Assembly: GCF_033115175.1 (NCBI RefSeq)
Contig: NC_084832.1
Coordinates: 13,257,342-13,321,341, forward strand
Source: Lepus europaeus
Taxonomy: Eukaryota; Chordata; Mammalia; Lagomorpha; Leporidae
Direction: 5' to 3'
Length of the DNA: 64,000 nt
The notes below the pieces were generated by a model. That model was not told the DNA's origin. It worked only from the letters and a program-made list of their open reading frames with translations, and ran no database searches. Both the position numbers and the translations under genes were made by a program. This document shows, in pieces, positions 12,518-63,098 of this stretch. Each line of letters starts with the position of its first letter. The stretch's first letter is position 1.

Positions 12518-12820
12518 TTAAAAAGATTTATTTATTTATTTGAAAGGCAGAGTTACACACAGAGAGAAGGAGAGGCAGAGGCACAGAGAGAGAAAAAGAG
12601 AGAGAGAGAGAGAGAGAGAGGTCTTCCACCCACTGGTTCACTCCCCAGATGGCTGCAATGGCTGGAGCTGGGCAGATTAGAAGTCAGGAGCTTCTTCCAG
12701 GTCTCCCACGTGGGTGCAGGGGCCCAAAGACTTGGGCTATCCTCTACTGCTTTCCCAGACACGTCACAGGGAGATGGATTGGAAATGGAGCAGCTGGGAC
12801 TAGAACCGGCCGGCATTAAC
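12518..12820 (-). mobile_element. CSINE immediately upstream of the GPCR exon
   Basis: Reverse copy from TTTAAAAAGATTTATTTATT to ACTAGAACCGGCCGGCATTA. It has a long GA tract and its head is truncated. It ends about 20 bp before the splice-acceptor tract of the receptor and forms an inverted pair with the SINE at 12241. Confidence 0.92.
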
Positions 12821-12839
12821 CATCTCTATTCCAGAGGCG

Positions 12840-12870
12840 TGTTTTCTGTCTCCCCTAGGACCTGAAGCAG
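12840..12870 (+). promoter_or_regulatory. Probable 3' splice acceptor and short 5' UTR before the GPCR start
   Basis: A pyrimidine-rich tract (TGTTTTCTGTCTCCCCTAG) ends in AG at 12857-12858, leaving GACCTGAAGCAG before the ATG at 12871. This is a strong acceptor and suggests that the receptor mRNA has an upstream non-coding exon spliced to a single coding exon, as in many GPR183-type genes. The start context is moderate (C at -3, G at +4). No upstream exon can be identified from sequence alone. Confidence 0.55.
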
Positions 12871-13917
12871 ATGGCCTCCACGCAGGCTGACCCAGGCAGC
12901 CTGCCCCTCAGCGTGGACCTGTGCCTTCCTCACGTCCCGGGCCGGGCGGCCTGCCTGACGCTCTGCCTGTTCTACGCAGCCCTCCTGGTCCTCGGTGTCC
13001 TGGGGAACGGCCTGGCCCTTTGCCTCGCCTGTCGAGGGGGCAAGAAGATCAACTCGGCAGGTGTCTACCTGGTCCACCTGGCCCTGTCCCACCTGCTGTG
13101 GACCTCGGCCCTGCCGGGAACCATCATCTACTACGCGCGGGGCTTCCACTGGCCGTTCGGGGACGGGCTGTGCAGGCTGACGGCGTTCCTGGTCAGTGCG
13201 AACGCCTACGGGGGTGTCTATCTCAGCATGTGCCTGAGCGTGGACCGCTACCTGGCGGTGGTGCGCGCCCACGGGCGCCCGCGGCCCCGCAGCGCCCACC
13301 AGGCGGGGCTGGTCTGCGCCGCTGTGTGGAGCCTGGTGCTGCTGCAGACGGTGCCCTTGCTCTGGACCCCCCTGGCCGAGCCCGCGGCGGGCAAGCCGAC
13401 CTGTGTGGAGCACGTGGGAGCCGAGCCCACGCTGGGGCTGCCCCTCCCGGCCCTGCTGGCCTGCGCCATCGGCTTCTGCGGGCCCGTGGGCGTCATGCTC
13501 TTGTGCTACGTGGCGATGGCCTCGAAGCTGCACAGGGCGGCCCAGGGCAGCCCCAGGGCGCGCCGGCGGGGACTGCCCCGGAGGGCCTGCCTGCTCTCCC
13601 TGCTGGGGCTGGTGGCCGTGGGGTTGTGCTTCGGGCCCTACCATCTGCACCTCTTCCAGTTCACGGTGCGGGCGGCGCTGCGCCCGCCGTCCTGCGCCGA
13701 GCGGAGGGCGTTCGCGTGGACCCTGCAGCTCACCGCGGCGCTCAGGAACGTGAACTGCGGCCTTGACCCTGTTGTCTACTTCTTTACATCCACGCGTGAC
13801 AGGAAGTGGCTCCTGCGCGTTTTAAAGCTCAGAGCCTTCTCCTCCTCTGGCCCCGGGGAAAAGCTTCTTCAGAAACAGGGCGGGAGGCTCGGGGTGCTGG
13901 CCCACAAGGAGGTCTAA
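12871..13917 (+). CDS. GPR183/EBI2-like class A G-protein coupled receptor, intact
   Basis: Uninterrupted 348-codon frame encoding a seven-helix plasma-membrane receptor. Seen: TM1 about 28-53 with G45-N46; KKINS in loop 1 (58-62); TM2 about 63-87; TM3 about 99-131 opening with C101 and ending D125-R126-Y127; TM4 about 144-167; C178 in ECL2, likely disulphide partner of C101; TM5 about 190-220; TM6 about 236-267 with LCFGPYH (252-258); TM7 about 279-305 with DPVVY (299-303); basic helix 8 and a Ser/Lys-rich tail. Established: KKINS, the IYYARGF-type end of TM2, LCFxPYH and DPxxYFF match GPR183 (oxysterol receptor guiding B cells and dendritic cells) and its relatives GPR18 and P2Y. Odd: the TM2 sodium-site Asp (2.50) is His74, the N-terminus has no N-X-S/T, and the coding region is far more GC-rich than its surroundings. 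I infer a divergent paralogue, not GPR183 itself; the ligand is unknown. Confidence 0.9.
   Translation: MASTQADPGSLPLSVDLCLPHVPGRAACLTLCLFYAALLVLGVLGNGLALCLACRGGKKINSAGVYLVHLALSHLLWTSALPGTIIYYARGFHWPFGDGLCRLTAFLVSANAYGGVYLSMCLSVDRYLAVVRAHGRPRPRSAHQAGLVCAAVWSLVLLQTVPLLWTPLAEPAAGKPTCVEHVGAEPTLGLPLPALLACAIGFCGPVGVMLLCYVAMASKLHRAAQGSPRARRRGLPRRACLLSLLGLVAVGLCFGPYHLHLFQFTVRAALRPPSCAERRAFAWTLQLTAALRNVNCGLDPVVYFFTSTRDRKWLLRVLKLRAFSSSGPGEKLLQKQGGRLGVLAHKEV
13080..13780. other. CpG-rich tract inside the GPCR coding region
   Basis: The central part of the receptor gene is dense in CG dinucleotides and has GC-biased third codon positions. Flanking intergenic DNA is GC-rich but depleted in CpG. It could act as an orphan CpG island or reflect GC-biased gene conversion. 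Confidence 0.55.
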
Positions 13918-14033
13918 CCTGTCGCTGACCACGGCGGAAGCTGGGGCACCCGGGCCGCGGGAGCAGGAAGCTGGTGCCATCTGCGGTGGGGGGTGGGAGT
14001 AGGATCTTTAAGAAAAATTCCAAAATAAGACGT
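13918..14033 (+). other. GPCR 3' flank, possible 3' UTR
   Basis: No AATAAA is visible; the nearest variant is AATAAG at about 14025. A 3' UTR running through the Tigger-like fossil is possible. Confidence 0.35.
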
Positions 14034-14318
14034 ACAGGTTGAGTGCTCCTTATCCAAAATGCTCGGGATATGCATTTGGGGTTTGTTCTCGGATTTGGGA
14101 ATATTTGCATATACGAGATATCCGGGGACTGGAACCCAAGTCTAAACACAAGATCCATTTGTGCTCCAAATCCACCTTATACCCATAGCCTGGAGCTAAT
14201 GTTATGCAATGTTTTTAATACTTTCGTGCAAGAAACAGTTTCGTGGTGTAGAATGTTCCATTGTGGAACATGTCAGCGCTCAAAACCTCGAGGGGTTTGG
14301 AGCATCTCAGCGGTCAGT
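14034..14318 (+). mobile_element. Tigger/MER-type DNA transposon fossil
   Basis: Starts CAGGTTGAGTGCTCCTTATC after a TA and continues with GGAATATTTGCATATACGAG and ACCCAAGTCTAAACACAAG, ending near TTTGGAGCATCTCAGC. These are landmarks of ancient TcMar-Tigger-derived non-autonomous elements (family name uncertain). It lies just 3' of the GPCR and may be part of its 3' UTR or flank. Confidence 0.6.
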
Positions 14319-15660
14319 TTTTGGCTTCGGGACGCTGGCCCTGGTCGCATTAGATTCGGGACGCAGGCAGGCAGTGTGCGAGAGTCGCGCCCTGAAGCTC
14401 GGGTTGCCTTAGCTCCCTGAGGAGTCCACCTCTCGTGTTTCAGAGTAAATACCAGTGGCACTGCTTGGCGTCTGGATGGGCACCCAGTGGTTTTTTTTTT
14501 TTTTTTCCTGGGAAAAGAGTGTTTCTTCTGTAAGTGCAGACAAGTTGGGAAGGGCTGGCTGAGGGCCACATCAGGCACACAGAGCTGCTCTCCAAGGTGG
14601 GAGGATGAAGCTGCAAAGAACAAACGCGCCTCAATGCTTAGCACTACCGTTGACCAAATGGCGTTTGCCAAGACGCCAAGGTTTGCTGACAAAGCCGGAA
14701 CACGTGGGGCGATGCCCACCAGGTGGTCGAGGTGAAGCCCTCTGAGCAGTGGCTGGGGGGTCTTGTGCACTCACAGACTGCTTGTGTAGCTGGAGCGACA
14801 TCGGGAGGAGGGGAAAAGGCAGCAAACAAATCCTCTCACTCGCTTTGCAGGTGCACACGCTTATTCACCTCGCTGTTTACCCGAGACCCAGGCAAGCCGG
14901 TCAGTGCAAGTTGTTGGGTCTCAGGCAATTGACAGAGCGTTTTGGCTGCAATGACTTCTGGTTTTGTGACCTCCCCAGGGTGACAGGGCTGAGAGCAACA
15001 TCCTTTGTTCTTCATCATAAATGCCTTTCCAACCGTACCTGAGTTTCGATGATGAAGCCGGTTCTGTGGGAACCGGCTCACCCAACCATGCCAGAAGTGG
15101 GAGTTTCAGCGCCAGGAGTCGGCTCCAAGGAAGGGAGGGGGTTGAGGATGGAGTTCAGTCCTTCCTGGCAGGTGATTTGATCAGTCACGCGTGCGTAAGG
15201 ACAGCTCCACAAACCCCCAAATCCTGGGTTCAGAGCCTGGATCAGTGAGCTCCATGCACTTGCAGGGTGGCACACCCCAATGTCTCGGGGACAGGGACAC
15301 CTTGGTCAGGAGCCTGCTGGGCCTGGCCCTCTCTGATATACTTCATAGCTGGTGATGGGGAGAAAGGCGTTCCCTGGCTGTGCGAACTGTTCCAGCCAAG
15401 TCAAAGCTGGGAGGGCATCGTGGGAGCCCATGCATTGGAGCGAGTCGGACCTGAGACCCACCCACTGCTTGTGGTTGGCGTCCCAAGGGTGGGCGTCTTG
15501 TGGGGCTAAGCCCTCTCCCTGCGGGGTCTGGGTCCACCCTGGGTAGGCAGGGTCAGAACGGGACGCCCCGGGGTGACTGCCGAGAGCTGGTTGTTGGGTG
15601 CCCATCTGTGTCCTGACACGTGGACTGGGCGCTCCTGGAGATGAGGTGTGTGGCTGGAGC
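14319..15660. other. Intergenic, nothing recognised
   Basis: Unique DNA with a T-run at about 14490-14506. Confidence 0.5.
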
Positions 15661-15901
15661 ATCCTTTTTTTTTTTTTTTTTAAAATTTATCAGGTAGAGT
15701 TATGGACAGTGAGAGAGAGAGACAGATAGAAAGGTCTTCCTTCCATTGGTTCACTCTGCAAATGGCTGCTATGGCTGGCACCCTCCCGGGCCACAGCAGA
15801 GAGCTAGACTGGAAGAGGAGCAACCGGGACTAGAACTGGTGCCCATATGGGATGCTGGTGCAGCAGGCTGAGGATTAACCAAGTGAGCCGCGGCGCTGGC
15901 C
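15661..15901 (-). mobile_element. CSINE, internally deleted
   Basis: A T-run, AAAATTTATCAGGTAGAGTT, then ACTAGAACTGGTGCCCATAT and GAGCCGCGGCGCTGGCC. The middle third is missing. Confidence 0.9.
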
Positions 15902-16839
15902 ATAGAGCATCCTCTTTTTACCTTTCAGGGCTCCTGCTCTGCAGGGCAGGGCTCAGGGCTCAGCGTGTGCCCGTAAGCGAGGATGGTGTCTCAGTGAGTC
16001 CCCCTCTGTGCCTGGGAAGACCCTCGAGGCTCCTAGTGGGCCCCCGGGCGCAAGTCTCCCCCACTCAGGCTCTGCTGGCGGGGAGGGGGGAGGCCTCTCA
16101 GCTTCAAAGTGACCCAGACATGTGGCTGTGGCCCCTGGGACGGCTGAGGCCCCAATGCTGAACTGCAAACCCGGGATCTGATGCCCAGTGCCCATGGGGG
16201 TGGGGTGCGCATAGCCAGCCTGGAGGCCGAGGCACTGAAGGTGCAAGGACCCCAACTCCTCCCTGGGGGCGCAGCTGAAGTCCACACCCCTGGCCTCAGA
16301 GGCGTGCACTCCCCCAGGTGCTCAGCACAGTGCTGCCCGGGCTGCAGGTTGGGAGCACATGGTGGGCAGGGAGGAGGAAGTCACACCGGAGAGGGTTGGG
16401 AAGGAAACAAAAGCAGGAAAGAGGCCTGGCAGGAAGAAGCAGCAAGGGGAGGAGGTGGCTGCACACGGAGGGCCGGCCGTGAGCCCCCTGCAGAGCTCCG
16501 AGGACTCAGGGCGTCCATCAGGGGTGGGGTGCTCCAGGGCTGAGCGCCAGCTGGACCCTGCACTCGGGGGTCTGGAGGGAGAGGGCCTTGCTGGGGATGT
16601 GCACCCGCACCGCGGCCCCTTTTCCTTCTGAAAAGGAAGTGATCCCGTCTGTACAAGGAACAACACACCTGCCACGTGGGTTGTCATGGACAAGAAAGAA
16701 ATCGTTCAAGACAAAAACGCTCCGTGGACCCCGAGGCTTTCTGAGGGCGCTGGCTTGGCGCCTGTGAGTGAGGACAACGCACAGCTCTTTTCACTGCTGG
16801 GACTCAAAGTCCCACACCCAGGCCACGCCGAGGCCCTAG
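15902..16839. other. Intergenic, nothing recognised
   Basis: GC-rich unique DNA without repeats or coding signal. Confidence 0.5.
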
Positions 16840-17020
16840 AGCCGCGGTTCTCCACGTGTGGTCCCCGCACCAGCAGCAGCCCTGCCTGGGGACTTGGTAG
16901 AAAGGCAAGCACTGGGGGTCCGACCCCGGCCGGCCGGACCCGCTGAGCCGCCCCCTGCCCCGGGGCTGCAGGCCAGCGCTCTGAGCGGCTCTGCACCACG
17001 TCCCAGTCTGAGGACTGCTG
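16840..17020 (+). mobile_element. MER5A-like hAT DNA transposon fossil
   Basis: Begins GGTTCTCCACGTGTGGTCCC, continues ACCAGCAGCAGC and GGGGACTTGGTAGAAAGGCA, and ends CAGTCTGAGGACTGCTG. This matches the MER5A layout (hAT-Charlie) from memory, with GC-shifted substitutions. Confidence 0.7.
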
Positions 17021-17718
17021 GCCAGGACCACAGCAGGCAGAGCTGTAGGAGCGGGGACTTGGACGTGCGTGTTTGTAAAGTTCCTTGCTGTGCCCGGAGC
17101 AGGAGCTGAGGATGGTGTGATCCACATGGTGGTCCTGTCCTGAGAACATTGCTACTAGGTCTTGAGATTTGCAGAGGGTGGGACAGCGCAGGTTGGGACT
17201 GGAGTGTCCACCTCCTTGCAGGAAGTGGAAGGCGACACTGGCAGCAAGGAGAGAGGGGAGGAGGAGGTGACTGGGGGGGGGGGGGACCAGAACCCAGCTG
17301 GCAGAATTGAGGCTTTGCCAAGGTGAATTCTAGCTTCTCCCTGAAGGAGGGGGCTTTGTGCCGGCCCTGCTGTTCCCCCTAATTCCCTGCTTCATCGCAA
17401 CACCAGACCCGGGCCGAGTGCCTGTCCCCTCACAGGAGGGGCAGAGCCGGGTGCCTGGATCGGCATGGGGCGTGTGGGAGGGGGTAGCTCTGAGCCTGTG
17501 GTGGGGCTTGCCCACGGGGCGGCTGTTGCGGCCACGCCACGCTTGGGTGGGCTTCGAGGATACGTGGAATAGACGAGGAAGGCAGGAAGAGCAGGACCCT
17601 AGTGTGTGTGTGTTGGGCGGGCTGTTATTTGGATTTGGGGCAGAGATGGGGTGGGGAGGGGCTCTGTGTCACCTGTGACATGGACTGGGGATGAGACCCA
17701 GGAATCGGGGAAGGAGGA
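17021..17718. other. Intergenic, nothing recognised
   Basis: GC-rich unique DNA with the G-run at 17273. Confidence 0.5.
17273..17285. repeat. G homopolymer
   Basis: About 13 G in a row within a GA-rich stretch. Confidence 0.9.
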
Positions 17719-18729
17719 GTGGGAGGAGCAAGGGGAGAAAGGGCAGAGAGGAGGTTGTGGAATCACGCCCAGGTGCTGTGGAATGGGCTGGCCGCTGACA
17801 GCGACTCAGGCCACACCTCTGGTCGCCTCCTCGGTCCGCAGCAGTCCTCTCCCAACAACAGTGGCTTTGGAGGCGCCATCAATCAGCCCTGTTCCAATGA
17901 CCAGCTTCTGCCACCACAGATCTGCGGGGAACGCATCAAAGCCGAAGTCACCAAGCTTGCGAGGCAGGGGGCCTTCATTCAAGGCCACGGTGATGGCCGA
18001 GAGAGGCCAGCTCTCAGTCCGAGGCGACACAGGGCAGGCACCGGGGCTGTGCCTGTCTGGGAGCGACGCCCCAGGGCACGGTACCATTTCTGGGAGGGCC
18101 GCGTGATGGCTTCCAAGAACATCAGTGACTTGGCGTTTGAAGAACGGAGGTTTCACATCCAGTTCCTGGAGACTCAGCTGCTCCTACCGGCTCCGGGCTG
18201 TCCCCAGGAAGTGCAGTTCCCCGAGTGCCACTACGTCCCGGGCACCACTGCGTGCCCCAAGGTAACCGTGGCCCGGCATTCGCTACAGTTTTCTCTCACT
18301 TCACCAATGACTGAGAATGGGACAGGCACAGAGGCAGAGATGCCCCGGGCACAGCAGGTGCTGGCTCCAGCGCGGACCATGCCACCCTGGGGCCCGCTGA
18401 CTCTGAGGCACAAAGTCACCTCTCTGGCAACACGCATGGCCCCTGGCACAGGTGCCCTGGTCCCTCGCTATTCGTCAAACTCTGCCGAGTGGAGTTTTCC
18501 GATGCCGAAGCTCCCCACGGTCGCAGGGCCTGGGATTGCACGGAGCCACGGCACAGGCTCTGTGGCTCTGGCTCTGCAGGGGGACAGGCGCTGGCCCCGG
18601 GGGAGTGAGGAGCCCTGTGTGTGTGCACCCACACGCCTGTGTTCAGGCACACTGCGTGACTGCTGTACAGGGCAGTGTTTTCTTTCCCACTCATTTCTGC
18701 AGGCATTTTCAGGGGCCAGCACTATGTGA
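17719..18729 (+). other. 336-codon open frame of unknown status
   Basis: Open from ATG 17719 to TGA 18727-18729 in non-repeat GC-rich DNA. The product has no signal peptide, membrane segment or motif I recognise. It is rich in Arg, Pro, Gly and Ser, as GC-rich chance frames are. The reverse strand is also open for 116 codons at 17806-18156. No Kozak, CpG promoter or splice evidence was found. Most likely non-coding; an old retrocopy cannot be excluded. Confidence 0.2.
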
Positions 18730-19023
18730 CAACTGAAGCGGGTGTGGCATTTATGCTGGCCTGCGAGCCTGGGCCGTGTGTTCTAGATGGTCAGTGACCC
18801 CAAGGATGAGGCCGATGGACTCAGAGCTGTGGCAGACACGGAGCACCGTTGTGTGTCCTATGCCCACAGGACCGTGGCCATTGTACGGTACCGGCCAATT
18901 TCTCATAGAGCCAGCCCCAGGGCCTAGAGACTCTCCCAGCTCCTGGACTGTGGTCCCGTGCTCAGCTGGCTTGTAGGAGTCTCAGTCTACCTTGTGCTTG
19001 AGCCTTGGCCCGCCTTCCCTCCC
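18730..19023. other. Intergenic, nothing recognised
   Basis: Unique sequence. Confidence 0.5.
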
Positions 19024-19313
19024 TCATTTATTCATTCATTCATTCATTTATTTATTTGAAAGTCAGAAAGAGGATCTTCCATCTGCTGCTTCACTCCCCA
19101 GATGGCTGCAGTGGCTAGGGCTGGGCCAGGCTGAAGCCAGGAGCCTGGAACTCCATCCGGGTCCCAGGGGCCCAAGCACATCTTCCCCTGCTTTTCCCAG
19201 GCCACAAGCAGGGAGCTGGATGGGAAGTGGAGCAGCCAGGTCTTGAACCGGCGCCGCCATAGGATGCCAGTATCACAGGCGGCAGCTTTATCCGCACGCC
19301 ACAGTGCCAGCCC
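19024..19313 (-). mobile_element. CSINE with (ATTC)n/(ATTT)n tail
   Basis: TCATTCATTCATTTATTTAT, ATCTGCTGCTTCACTCCCC and CGCCACAGTGCCAGCCCC. Confidence 0.9.
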
Positions 19314-20284
19314 CTGGCTCATCTTTCCAAGTCACACAGAGTTCCGGTGTGAGTCGAGGATGTGAGAGGCCAGCAGGAGCCTCACCCACAGAGTCGGAGG
19401 TGCACTTCTCGGGGCACAGCCCGTAAAACCAGGCAGCTCCCAGGTGGGCAGGGAGGTAGAGGCCAAATGGCTGAGTTAGCCTTGGGAGTCACTGCGGGCT
19501 CTGAAGGCAGGCTTCATGGGAGCAGTGGGGGCACTCTGACGTCCCATCCAGCTCTGATGGCCTCGATCGCAAGTCTGCCGGAGGCCGGATTTCCCCGCGC
19601 GTTCGTGGTTTTGGCATACGTCTTTAGTGGTGTGTGTGTGCGCACGCGTGTGTGTGTTCTGTGTGGGTGGCCTGCCTCCCAAGCTGTTGCTGGTGCTGCT
19701 GATGTGTCTTGGCAGCCACATCAACACAGAATCCTGGAAAGAGAGGGGAGGGGAGAGGAGGGCAGGGGAAGGGAGGGGAGAGTGGAGGACCGAGCCCGAC
19801 CAAGGAGGTCTGGTTTAGGCGCTGATGAGCAGCTGTCTCGTACCTGCTTGGTGGGGGCCCTGCCCTGCCCCCTGAGTGTGCAGACAGCAGCAGCTGGGGA
19901 GTTGGGCAAGGAGCCCCCCCAGTCCCTACTCTTGGCACCAGGAGCTGGGAGGTGCTGCTACCCGTTTGTTCAAGCTTAGTGAGGTTTGGGGAGCCCATCT
20001 GGAAAGCAGGGGAAGAAATCAGGGCCGAGGTCCCCAACTTCTTAAAGCTGCCCTTCGGGGGGCCTCTTTCCTGACCCTGCCAATGTGAGCCACATTCTGC
20101 ACTTTTCCATCCCAGTGCCTGGAGCGAGTCCCGTGGGCGGCACGGCTGGTCCACGGCCAGCGCTGCCCCAGAGGCCTGTGGTCAGTCCCATCCACTGGCA
20201 TTCAGATTACAAGCTAACACTCGCTGCGAAAGGGACAAAATACAGAGGTGAGAATGAGTGGCTTCTGCTCTTCTTAATTATTAC
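19314..20284. other. Intergenic, nothing recognised
   Basis: A TG-rich stretch lies at about 19629-19665 and a GGGGA-rich tract at 19744-19790; no gene is seen. Confidence 0.5.
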
Positions 20285-20337
20285 TTTGTTAAAGATTTAT
20301 TTATTTATTTGAAAGAGTTACAGAAAGGGACAGGCAG

Positions 20338-20382
<45 letters not shown>

Positions 20383-20963
20383 CTTTTATCTGCTGGTTCA
20401 CTCCCCAAATGGCTGTAACGGCCAGGGCCAGGCCAGGCTGAAGCCAGGAGCCTGGAACTCCATGTGGGTCCCAGGGCTCCAAGCACTTGGGCCATCTTCC
20501 TCTGCTTCCCCAGGCACATTAGCAGGGAGCAGGATTGGAAGTGGAGCAGAGGCCGGCGCTGTGGCGCAGTGGGTTAAAGCCCCAGCCTGTAGTGCTGGCA
20601 TCTCATATGGGGGCTGGTTCGAGTCCTGGCTGTTCCTCTTCTGATCCAGCTCTCTACTATGGCCTGGGAAAGCAGTGGAAGATGGCCCAAGTGCTTGGGC
20701 CCCTGTACCCATGTGGAAGGCCTGGAAGAAGCTCCTGGCTCCTGGCACTGGATCAGCGCAGCTCTGGTCGTTGTGGCCATTTGGGGAGTGAACCAGAGGA
20801 AAGGAAGACCTCTCTCTCTCTGTAACTCCATCTTTCAAATAAATACAATAATTCTTTAGGAAAAAAAAAGGAAGTGGAGCAGCCAGGACATGAACTGGTG
20901 CCCATACGGGATGCTGGCACATCACAGGTGGTGGCTTAACCCGTTGCACCACAGTGCTGGCTT
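20285..20963 (-). mobile_element. CSINE split by a second CSINE (outer element)
   Basis: Reverse copy: TTAAAGATTTATTTATTTAT at 20291 through GGATTGGAAGTGGAGCAG at 20549, resuming at 20870 with GGAAGTGGAGCAGCCAGGAC and ending CACCACAGTGCTGG. It carries a (GA)n tract at about 20343-20378. Confidence 0.95.
20550..20869 (+). mobile_element. CSINE inserted in opposite orientation, with 13-bp TSD
   Basis: AGGCCGGCGCTGTGGCGCAG head, TTTCAAATAAATACAATAAT tail and A-run. It is flanked by GGAAGTGGAGCAG at 20537-20549 and 20870-20882, sequence that belongs to the outer SINE. Confidence 0.96.
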
Positions 20964-24962: not shown

Positions 24963-25070
24963 TCAGTGCTGCAGCAGGAAGTTGGTGGCCACGTTGAGGT
25001 CGTTATTTGAAGCTCTCAGGGCTTCCAGGGCATCGCCTCTGGAAAATCCCATCTCCATGAGCCTCGCCAC
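24963..25070 (-). CDS. UBAC2: UBAC2 last coding exon with UBA domain and stop
   Basis: Thirty-five codons plus TGA, preceded by a TTTCCAG acceptor at 25071-25072. The product begins V-A-R-L-M-E-M-G-F-S-R and ends N-F-L-L-Q-H. This is a UBA three-helix fold: the MGF loop (residues 7-9 of the exon) and the C-terminal L-L motif form the ubiquitin-binding patch. With the exons at 37452 and 62853 it gives a 158-residue C-terminal part, the length expected for residues 187-344 of human UBAC2. No damage is visible. Confidence 0.96.
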   Translation of the reverse strand: MARLMEMGFSRGDALEALRASNNDLNVATNFLLQH

Positions 25071-25289
25071 CTGGAAACAGACACAGAGCAGAGCCTGAGG
25101 ACACGCCGGCAGCGTAGCTGACTCCCCCGGGCCTCATGGAGCTTCCTGGGAGGGCAAAACCCAACTAGTTGTCATTTCAGTGTGAAATCTGCTGTCTACA
25201 AACTGTAATGGGTAGAAACTCGCCAGCGCTTGCCATATGCAGCCAATACGAATGCCTCATCCCACGTCGTCCTCGTTTTAGGATGATGC

Positions 25290-36915: not shown

Positions 36916-37451
36916 AAGACAGAAAGGTCTGTTTGCAGTCCTCCCGTCTTTAGATGAGGGTGCACCGCGTGCCCAGTCGCAGAGATGAGATCCCTGCAGT
37001 GCGACTGTTCTCTCACCGCCAGTGCAGCTGCATCGTTTGTTTCTTTTCAGTGTTGTGTTGCTCCCTGTCCCTGTTGACTCGCTTTTTGAGTAAATAAACA
37101 CTAACACGGTTTAAAATGACACAAAAGTGAAAACCACACCAGAGGTAAACTCAGAAGGGGCGCTCCCTCCCCACCCTTGGAAGGGAATCAACATGTTCAT
37201 TTCTCCCACATATAAAGCGCAACAATTTAAAATGAGCTACCACAGTACCTGCCCCACGCCTTCCACAAACCCCTAAGACCCACAGCTGCCAACGGCCCAC
37301 AGTCACTCTGAAGGGTGACAGGGCGGCTGTTAGGAACATCTCTGCACTTACGAGCTTCACTTCTTCCAAAACCAAGCTTTGATTTGCTGCTGACCAAAAC
37401 CTCTCGGAGGGCGAGCTGCGGGCGTAGGTAAGAGGGAGGTGCTGCGATTAC
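36916..37451. other. Intronic unique DNA beside the UBAC2 exon
   Basis: No repeat recognised. It ends at the UBAC2 donor. Confidence 0.5.
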
Positions 37452-37574
37452 CTGCTCCTCAGAAACCTCCAGAGGAGGGGACGCCTGCTGTTCAGACCGC
37501 CGGCCATCCGGGAAGTTTATATTCCGCCGCTGACGTAACGGGGGGAACAGCCGATTCCAATTGATCATTCCTCC
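37452..37574 (-). CDS. UBAC2: UBAC2 penultimate coding exon (41 codons)
   Basis: Reading leftwards, the exon follows a TTTGTAG acceptor (37575-37577), begins G-G-M-I-N-W-N-R-L-F-P-P-L and ends L-E-V-S-E-E-Q before a GTAATC donor at 37450-37451. Both boundaries are phase 0, so it joins the 62853-63098 exon and the last exon in frame. It encodes the proline- and charge-rich linker between the membrane domain and the UBA domain. The middle (R-N-I-N-F-P-D-G-R) differs from the human linker as I recall it, as expected for a disordered segment. Confidence 0.95.
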
Positions 37575-50418: not shown

Positions 50419-52028
50419 CTTCTGCTTCCCCCTCCTTCATCCCTTTGCTCAGTATCTGCTCATTGTCTTCCTCCTAACTGTAGCTCCACAGAAGAAGTGA
50501 TCAAATATTTCTCAAAGTTGCAATGAGTTCTGCTACTTGCTACCAGTAAATGTTTTGATAGAGGAGCTGAAACTCATTATTAAAAATGAGATTGGGGATT
50601 ACTCACGATTTCCCCCCTTTTTAGATCTCCTTCCCCAAAGCGTTCACCAGCCTCACTTATGTCTTCAGCAACCCCTCGCCCTTCAGCCAGCACTGTGCCC
50701 GGCCGGCTGGAAACCTGGGGCTCCACTGGACTCAGCTCCCTCCTCCGCACGGTCAGCCTAGCCGGCACTCCGAGACTGCTGGCTTCCCTTCTGCAGAGGC
50801 CTGCCGCCGGTGCAGGCCCCTGTCATCCCACTCGGAGCCTCTGCCACTTCCTGATGCCATTCCCACTTCCCCAGTCTGATCCTCACAGCAGCGCAGGAGA
50901 ATCCGCACTGCAGCTCCCCTCCCGACGCCACTGCCTGACAAAATCCTCTCCCAGCCGGGGCCTGAGGTTCTCTGTCCCGCTCTGCAGGTCTGCCCGAACC
51001 CACCCTGTCCTAAATGGTTTCTCACTTCTCCCCAGCACGCCGCTCCCGCTCACCGCGGCCCCCACGAACTGCAAGGCTACACCTGCTTGGATGGCGCCCT
51101 TGCTTCCTCCCCCACCTGTGTTTGTCCAGGGCACAGCTCTGTTTTCTGTCTGTGACTGGCTTCTTCCTCCACAAGCAAACCCTTCCCGCTCTCCCTCTGC
51201 CAGGCTGCCAGGCTGCCAGGGAACCCGGTCACGCCACCAATGGAAACGGAACAGAACAGAGGGTGGTTTCCTCGTGGGTAAAATGGAAAGCTGGACTAGA
51301 CAGATGATCCTTAAGCCAGTTAGGAGGTGCCTCCTCCCCATCAGTCTGTGGACACGCATCCCAGAAGCCACACAATTCTCTCTTGTCATGGGGGCTGCCT
51401 GCCACAGTCGCAGTCACAGGATCCTGGCCAGTCACTCCAGTTCCACTCTGCTATCTTGCTCACCACGGAGCTCCAACGAGACAGCGGCACCATGGGCAAC
51501 CATCTCTCCAAGGAGCACAGTGGCCGACAGCGTCCACCCGAGGCAGCACAGCAGCCTCTTCACCCCGAGCCTGGGCTCTGAGACACTGGCTGCTCGTGCG
51601 CCCCATGAACAGGTGCACCTCGCAGGCACCTTGACTACAAATCTCAGTGTGGCTAATCTGTGCTCTCATCTCAGAGCAGAGCGTGAGTCACAGCTCTGGG
51701 AACTCTTGGCCCCAGGCTGCTTTATTCACAAGCCACCTCTGTCAGGGCTGAGGCTCCAGCTGAGCCGCAGGGGCGGGGCAGGGGCAGGGGGACTTCCATG
51801 AAATCCAAGATCTCTCAAGGTGATCAGAGGGCTTTTCCAGGGATGCATATGGACGTCCCAGTGGCCTGTCCTGCTTTATGAGTATTTCCTGGTTTTGAAA
51901 GCCCACGGGGAAAGCTTTTTTGGGGGAGGAAAAAAAACTTGCAAAAATGCTTATGAGGATGATTTTTCTAATAATCCTCTACTTTACATTCTGCTGCCCT
52001 ACAGTACATCCATAAACTCAGGCGTGGT
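50419..52028. other. Intronic unique DNA with a 380-codon chance frame
   Basis: The frame 50659-51801 is rich in Ser, Pro, Leu and Arg with no domain. GTGGGTAAAATGGAAAGC at about 51274 recalls an old MIR. No exon signal. Confidence 0.45.
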
Positions 52029-62852: not shown

Positions 62853-63098
62853 CTGCTGCTGCCTCTGTCGCCTCACTTGTGCGAACTGGGAGAGCATCAG
62901 CTGCCGATCCAGCAGCTCCATTCTTTGCTGTCTCTGGATGTCCACAGTGGCTCCCATCCCAATCCTAGCTTCGCTGGTGGGTTCTGAAGACGAGAAGATG
63001 GGCTCAAGTGTCCTAGAAAAGAACTTTGCCATCCAGCTGGGGACACGGAGCACCTGGTGAACCTGGAGCATTTTGCTATCATAGCACATTCCGGAAAC
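62853..63098 (-). CDS. UBAC2: UBAC2 internal coding exon (82 codons)
   Basis: UBAC2 is an ER membrane rhomboid-pseudoprotease-like protein with a C-terminal UBA domain. It acts in ER-associated degradation and tethers UBXD8/FAF2 at the ER. Reading leftwards, the exon follows a TTTTAG acceptor at 63099-63100, starts V-S-G-M-C-Y-D-S-K and ends R-Q-R-Q-Q-Q before a GTAAAA donor at 62852; both boundaries are phase 0. Motifs shared with human UBAC2 from memory include PSWMAKFFS, LEPIFSSSEPTSEARIG and MELLDRQLM. It covers the end of the membrane domain and the start of the linker to the UBA domain, roughly residues 187-268 of 344. The more 5' exons lie to the right of the window. Confidence 0.95.

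Follow-up and report, generated by a model that had tools for sequence, protein, structure and literature searches.

The window, the whole 64,000-nt stretch of Lepus europaeus DNA analyzed here (C8:13257342-13321341 of a 2.93-Gb genome), carries a 348-codon open reading frame (ORF) on the + strand at positions 12871-13917, which starts with ATG and has no internal stops. The translation matched the Pfam family 7tm_1 along the entire profile (8.4e-44; 1-260 of 260), and its alignment with GPR183 spans the full ORF length without a frameshift. Six of the seven class A anchors are kept (N1.50, R3.50, W4.50, P5.50, P6.50, and P7.50), the exception being a histidine at 2.50. The DRY motif (D125 R126 Y127), the C101-C178 pair, LCFGPYH, and DPVVYFF are all present; an earlier note on this DNA had described a full frame of this length with these motifs, and the frame, the Pfam match, and the GPR183 alignment confirm it. 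A second cysteine pair is also retained, formed by the N-terminal C18 and by C275 before TM7, positions at which 23 and 22, respectively, of 29 comparison receptors carry cysteine. These comparison receptors comprised 27 from the same genome (leporid GPR183 among them) together with human LPAR6 and GPR4; five human sequences with an orthologue in this genome were excluded from the set. Save for the 2.50 anchor, the predicted product thus classes as a class A (rhodopsin-like) G protein-coupled receptor.

A length of 348 codons was reached by none of 2000 first-order Markov sequences of the ORF's own make-up, scored in three forward frames each (95% point, 213; maximum, 341). The frame is taken as real because of its homology, however, and not its length, and the homology rules out a chance ORF. 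An overlapping antisense ORF of 272 codons (12826-13644, - strand) had no Pfam match and is probably a by-product of composition and high GC3, because GC-rich DNA here yields long chance frames. The longest ATG-initiated ORF of the window lies elsewhere (50659-51801, + strand; 380 codons) and encodes a Ser/Pro-rich product with no Pfam match. An Rfam search of the window returned no match, and a single-sequence AlphaFold2 model of the receptor was set aside (mean pLDDT of 46).

The receptor lies next to UBAC2, whose exons were located with a human UBAC2 protein sequence that may be imperfect, as may therefore the identities given here. The matched parts of three coding exons fall on the - strand at 24966-25073 (the last coding exon, 100% identity), 37449-37574 (79%), and 62880-63098 (89%). 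With the UBAC2 C-terminus ending at 24966, the receptor therefore lies 11 kb downstream of the UBAC2 stop codon and is encoded on the other strand, as the earlier note had placed it. That note had also seen no such receptor in the two UBAC2 introns of the window; a tblastn search with GPR183 (E up to 1) matched the receptor ORF and no second receptor site anywhere in the window. The genuine GPR183 of this genome, 89% identical to the human protein over 330 residues, starts approximately 102 kb to the right, and GPR18 starts approximately 148 kb away, 46 kb beyond GPR183. Both are encoded on the + strand, that of the ORF, in the interval bounded by the UBAC2 exons that encode residues 92-129 and 188-260; exons for residues 130-187 were not found. 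The arrangement known from human, with GPR183 and GPR18 inside UBAC2 on the opposite strand, therefore holds in this genome. On the far side of the receptor are exons of an EMP70-family gene (C8:13132112-13156894, - strand), which is probably TM9SF2, judging by synteny. The ORF is thus a third + strand receptor of the UBAC2 cluster, sharing region and strand with GPR183 and GPR18, but is located past the 3' end of UBAC2 rather than between its exons.

Among receptors of solved structure, human GPR183 was the closest relative of the ORF (225 bits in a PDB search), followed by GPR17 (134 bits). Human GPR183, used as the query, reached at most 162 bits against other solved receptors, below its score with the ORF. 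Within its own genome, the second match to the ORF was the true GPR183 (37% identity) and the third was the GPR17 orthologue (33%), named by its 93% identity to the human chain, while the 109 matches, from a search in which 116 of the 185 candidates were scored, included no second copy of the ORF. Identity with GPR18 was 26%. A GPR18 query sequence matched GPR17 best in the PDB (121 bits, against 104 for GPR183), and no entry named GPR18 was among its best 60 matches. We built a tree of 35 sequences (the ORF, 27 other receptors from this genome, and seven human chains), in which GPR183 was represented by two sequences only. The ORF was the sister branch of the human-leporid GPR183 pair (support, 100/99), and this position was unchanged in a 29-sequence tree from which six long-branch sequences, including GPR18, had been removed. 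A clade of the ORF with GPR17 was rejected by the AU test (p = 0.024). Among the receptors examined, the ORF and GPR183 are thus closest to each other in both directions, as expected of paralogous sisters, with the caveat that a clade of the ORF with GPR18 was not rejected (p = 0.13). The tree suggested in the earlier note therefore does not return a one-to-one orthologue of GPR183, as the ORF falls outside the GPR183 pair and a separate GPR183 exists in the same genome.

A catalogued home for such a sister may exist. The uncharacterized clade GPR197 is listed alongside GPR183, GPR17, P2RY, and CYSLTR, and the catalogue section that treats it records fishes, coelacanth, sauropsids, and five mammals, a patchy mammalian retention (PMC6504862). 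Gar ENSLOCP00000021877 is one of its members. The tree presented here likewise implies an old duplication surviving in few mammals, and the ORF may belong to this clade as its leporid copy, a reading compatible with the one we favor below. We nevertheless consider this assignment possible rather than likely: the catalogue section includes no synteny, GPR197 is represented here by its description alone, and P2RY16 and GPR205, other unnamed clades of that section, are also possible homes (PMC6504862). If the assignment is correct, the ORF would provide a locus and a sequence for a lineage catalogued only as an orphan clade.

The transmembrane core of the predicted receptor is unusual at four positions. 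The 2.50 residue is H74 (codon at 13090-13092, + strand), where 28 of the 29 comparison receptors have aspartate and one has asparagine. At 3.43, S119 (13225-13227, + strand) replaces the leucine, methionine, or isoleucine found in all 29. The codons from G246 (6.40) to V250 (6.44) occupy 13606-13620 (+ strand); 6.40 is valine, leucine, or isoleucine in 25 of 29 comparison receptors, and 6.44 is phenylalanine in 26 and valine in two. The earlier note had overlooked these non-canonical residues. A conservation of 94% is reported for D2.50 among class A receptors, and replacement of this residue changes or abolishes G protein signaling in a receptor-dependent manner (PMC12462484); the related CysLT2R with a polar residue at 3.43 is described as constitutively active and Gq-biased (PMC7948404). 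From H2.50, S3.43, G6.40, and V6.44 together, a poorly locked and sodium-insensitive resting state would follow, with raised basal activity or strongly biased coupling to be expected. We give raised basal or biased signaling a chance slightly short of even. The same four residues could instead be the first signs of relaxed constraint.

The surroundings of the ORF offer a tentative gene model. A candidate splice acceptor (polypyrimidine tract plus AG) at 12835-12858 (+ strand) ends 12 nt before the ATG and would make the receptor ORF a later exon. By an approximate scoring matrix, it ranked first among the 61 AGs of a 620-nt stretch and fell within the top 1.05% of the 5122 + strand AGs of the window; by the same scoring, the acceptor candidates of leporid GPR183 and GPR18, located 32 and 34 nt before their ATGs, ranked only third among 32 and fourth among 43, respectively. 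An exon upstream of the candidate acceptor was not located. Directly upstream of it, at 12520-12830, is a SINE resembling the lagomorph C-repeat, which may have altered the intron end; the motif of this element had 11 matches (up to three mismatches) and none in 100 shuffles. Downstream, no canonical poly(A) signal (AATAAA or ATTAAA) was found for 6.9 kb past the stop (13918-20838), the first being at 20838, whereas leporid GPR183 has one approximately 344 nt past its stop. Variant signals occur at 14444 (AGTAAA, 527 nt after the receptor stop) and 15016 (CATAAA). The stretch at 14030-14400, just 3' of the receptor, resembles an old eutherian DNA transposon.

The composition of the ORF is skewed, with GC contents of 0.68, 0.52, and 0.90 at the three codon positions, while ten flanking 500-base blocks ranged from 0.52 to 0.66 overall (eight at 0.59 or below). 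The CpG observed/expected ratio was 0.67-0.78 over 12871-14370, a CpG-rich patch that spans the receptor and 500 bases beyond it; the median for the window was 0.4 per 1 kb. The protein has no N-X-S/T glycosylation site along its whole length.

Several of these features would suit a once-functional receptor that has only just become a pseudogene, or that evolves under relaxed selection, and whose frame is still open by chance: the altered core residues, the lack of both a glycosylation site and a nearby canonical poly(A) signal, and a GC-rich frame that is hard to break, in which approximately 2.4%-2.5% of single-base changes are nonsense. Such an origin is nonetheless unlikely given the absence of frameshifts, the GC3 of 0.90, and the retention of both cysteine pairs and of 14 of 15 near-invariant positions (those at least 90% conserved). 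Because this retention is ordinary among the 30 receptors, in which the ORF ranked tenth from worst, decay is not evident; results were similar at cut-offs of 95% (9 of 10 retained), 80% (25 of 27; 16th of 30), and 70% (33 of 40; 13th of 30). The sole position lost at the 90% cut-off was D2.50. The earlier argument that motif conservation indicates selection consequently stands for the near-invariant positions but not for the core, where this aspartate is gone and 3.43, 6.40, and 6.44 are unusual. Under a neutral model with an assumed indel:substitution ratio of 0.1 and 5% nonsense, the frame would remain intact with a probability of 0.015 at 3% change and 0.0009 at 5%. These figures are somewhat too strict because the nonsense share of the ORF is only about 2.5%, a value with which the probability at 3% change becomes approximately 0.03 by hand calculation. 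Relaxation that set in recently, within only a few per cent of neutral divergence, is still conceivable. Taken together, the ORF is very probably a real, recently functional coding gene.

The ligand pocket combines conserved and replaced residues. In GPR183, R87, Y112, N114, Y116, E183, and Y260 matter for 7alpha,25-dihydroxycholesterol, and alanine at R87 or Y112 dramatically lowered binding (PMC4209795). The ORF keeps four of the six (the equivalents of N114, Y116, E183, and Y260), whereas R87 at 2.60 is replaced by T84 (codon at 13120-13122, + strand) and Y112 at 3.33 by S109 (13195-13197, + strand). With R2.60 and Y3.33 replaced but N3.35, Y3.37, Y6.51, and the ECL2 glutamate in place, the oxysterol response is predicted to be lost or weak, and we consider it probable that the product does not act as a 7alpha,25-dihydroxycholesterol receptor, or does so only weakly.

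The four retained contacts would also be expected of a decoy or scavenger receptor, one that binds an oxysterol or a similar ligand but does not signal through G proteins. Replacement of D2.50 abolished G protein signaling in the A2A receptor (PMC12462484), and the proline and leucine found just after TM3 in GPR183 (aligned as 3.57/3.58) are alanine and histidine in the ORF. Alanine at that proline position, however, also occurs in seven of the 29 comparison receptors, and the DRY and DPxxY motifs of the ORF are intact. Several known decoy receptors lack intact DRY or DPxxY motifs. A decoy function is accordingly quite unlikely.

The age of the duplication bears on one further alternative, namely that the ORF is a fast-evolving, lagomorph-specific duplicate of GPR183 instead of an old lineage. 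It shares cluster and strand with GPR183, and its long branch (1.62, about twice the 0.73 + 0.05-0.06 of GPR183) and deviant composition could push such a duplicate to the base, for which reason its placement in the tree may be model-dependent. Yet a clade of the ORF with leporid GPR183 alone was rejected (AU test, p = 0.0036), identity with GPR183 is only 37%, and at 28 sites that differ between human and leporid GPR183 the ORF matched the human residue at five and the leporid residue at two, showing no leporid bias. A lagomorph-specific duplicate is thus very unlikely, and we hold with considerable confidence, based on the tree and these comparisons, that the ORF represents a GPR183 sister that arose before the human and lagomorph lineages diverged. 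A duplication of that age would imply that the human lineage has lost the gene. The proposal in the earlier note of a third, divergent cluster member is supported by the same rejection, along with the 100/99 placement and the existence of separate GPR183 and GPR18 genes. The further suggestion in that note, of retention here with loss or missing annotation in other mammals, would so far apply to the human lineage, and a few mammals may carry the gene as GPR197. Viral capture of the receptor is needless as a reading because synteny and tree suffice, and no relative was found among viral contigs (19 pattern matches to the protein) or, with an alignment of the ORF and leporid GPR183, among prokaryote contigs (14 pattern matches), both collections not being meant to hold vertebrates.

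The best overall explanation, to which we assign a probability of roughly 0.7 on the sequence evidence, is that the ORF is an old tandem duplicate of the GPR183 ancestor that has been kept as a coding gene of the UBAC2 region. Under this explanation, a tandem duplication in the UBAC2 region would have given rise to the receptor gene long ago, and the gene would have been retained in this lagomorph lineage while disappearing from the human one. The receptor would be made from a spliced gene with its coding region in one exon, and its product would reach the cell surface and couple to a G protein; its relatives use Gi by default. A hydrophobic small ligand would presumably be bound in a pocket of the GPR183 type. 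We infer that the receptor folds and probably couples, and that its ligand and basal signaling are changed. A bolder version, in which a third UBAC2-cluster receptor of early-vertebrate or pre-human-lagomorph age has a rebuilt core without the sodium-site aspartate, signals constitutively or with bias, has a ligand of its own, and was lost in human, is doubtful as a whole.

GPR183 plays a central part in placing B cells within lymphoid organs, where they follow an oxysterol gradient (PMC4209795). If a rabbit-like animal has a sister receptor, this could confound work with rabbit models and would offer a natural experiment. Such a receptor could point to the pocket residues that determine oxysterol recognition, and could explain the working of a class A receptor whose 2.50 and 3.43 positions are histidine and serine. 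If a constitutive or biased third receptor of this kind exists, rabbits and people would have different signals for positioning immune cells.

Among known receptors, GPR183 (also EBI2), which guides immune cells as a chemotactic receptor for 7alpha,25-dihydroxycholesterol, is the nearest to the ORF, being its best full-length match and sharing its chromosomal cluster, its strand, the two cysteine pairs, a KKINS loop, N3.35, Y3.37, Y6.51, and the ECL2 glutamate. Unlike GPR183, the ORF has threonine in place of R2.60 and serine in place of Y3.33, in addition to H2.50, S3.43, G6.40, and V6.44; it also lacks an N-glycosylation site, has a GC3 of 0.90 and a branch about twice as long, and lies past UBAC2 instead of between its exons. 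GPR17 is the second-best solved relative and third match in the same genome, but is on a different contig, has lower identity, and is rejected as a joint clade. GPR18 shares cluster and strand, but has the lowest identity of the three and is not the sister in the best tree, though a pairing with it is not rejected. The GPR197 clade, compared by description only, resembles the ORF in being grouped with GPR183 and GPR17 and in being retained by few mammals (PMC6504862). No third UBAC2-cluster receptor is described in the titles and abstract openings listed for GPR183, UBAC2, and GPR197, and the main texts of the GPCR surveys of dog and rat do not contain the term EBI2, although a RefSeq or Ensembl model of this gene may well exist. 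Judged by its sequence, the ORF is a real and very divergent receptor gene, new or little noticed, with an unusual activation core.
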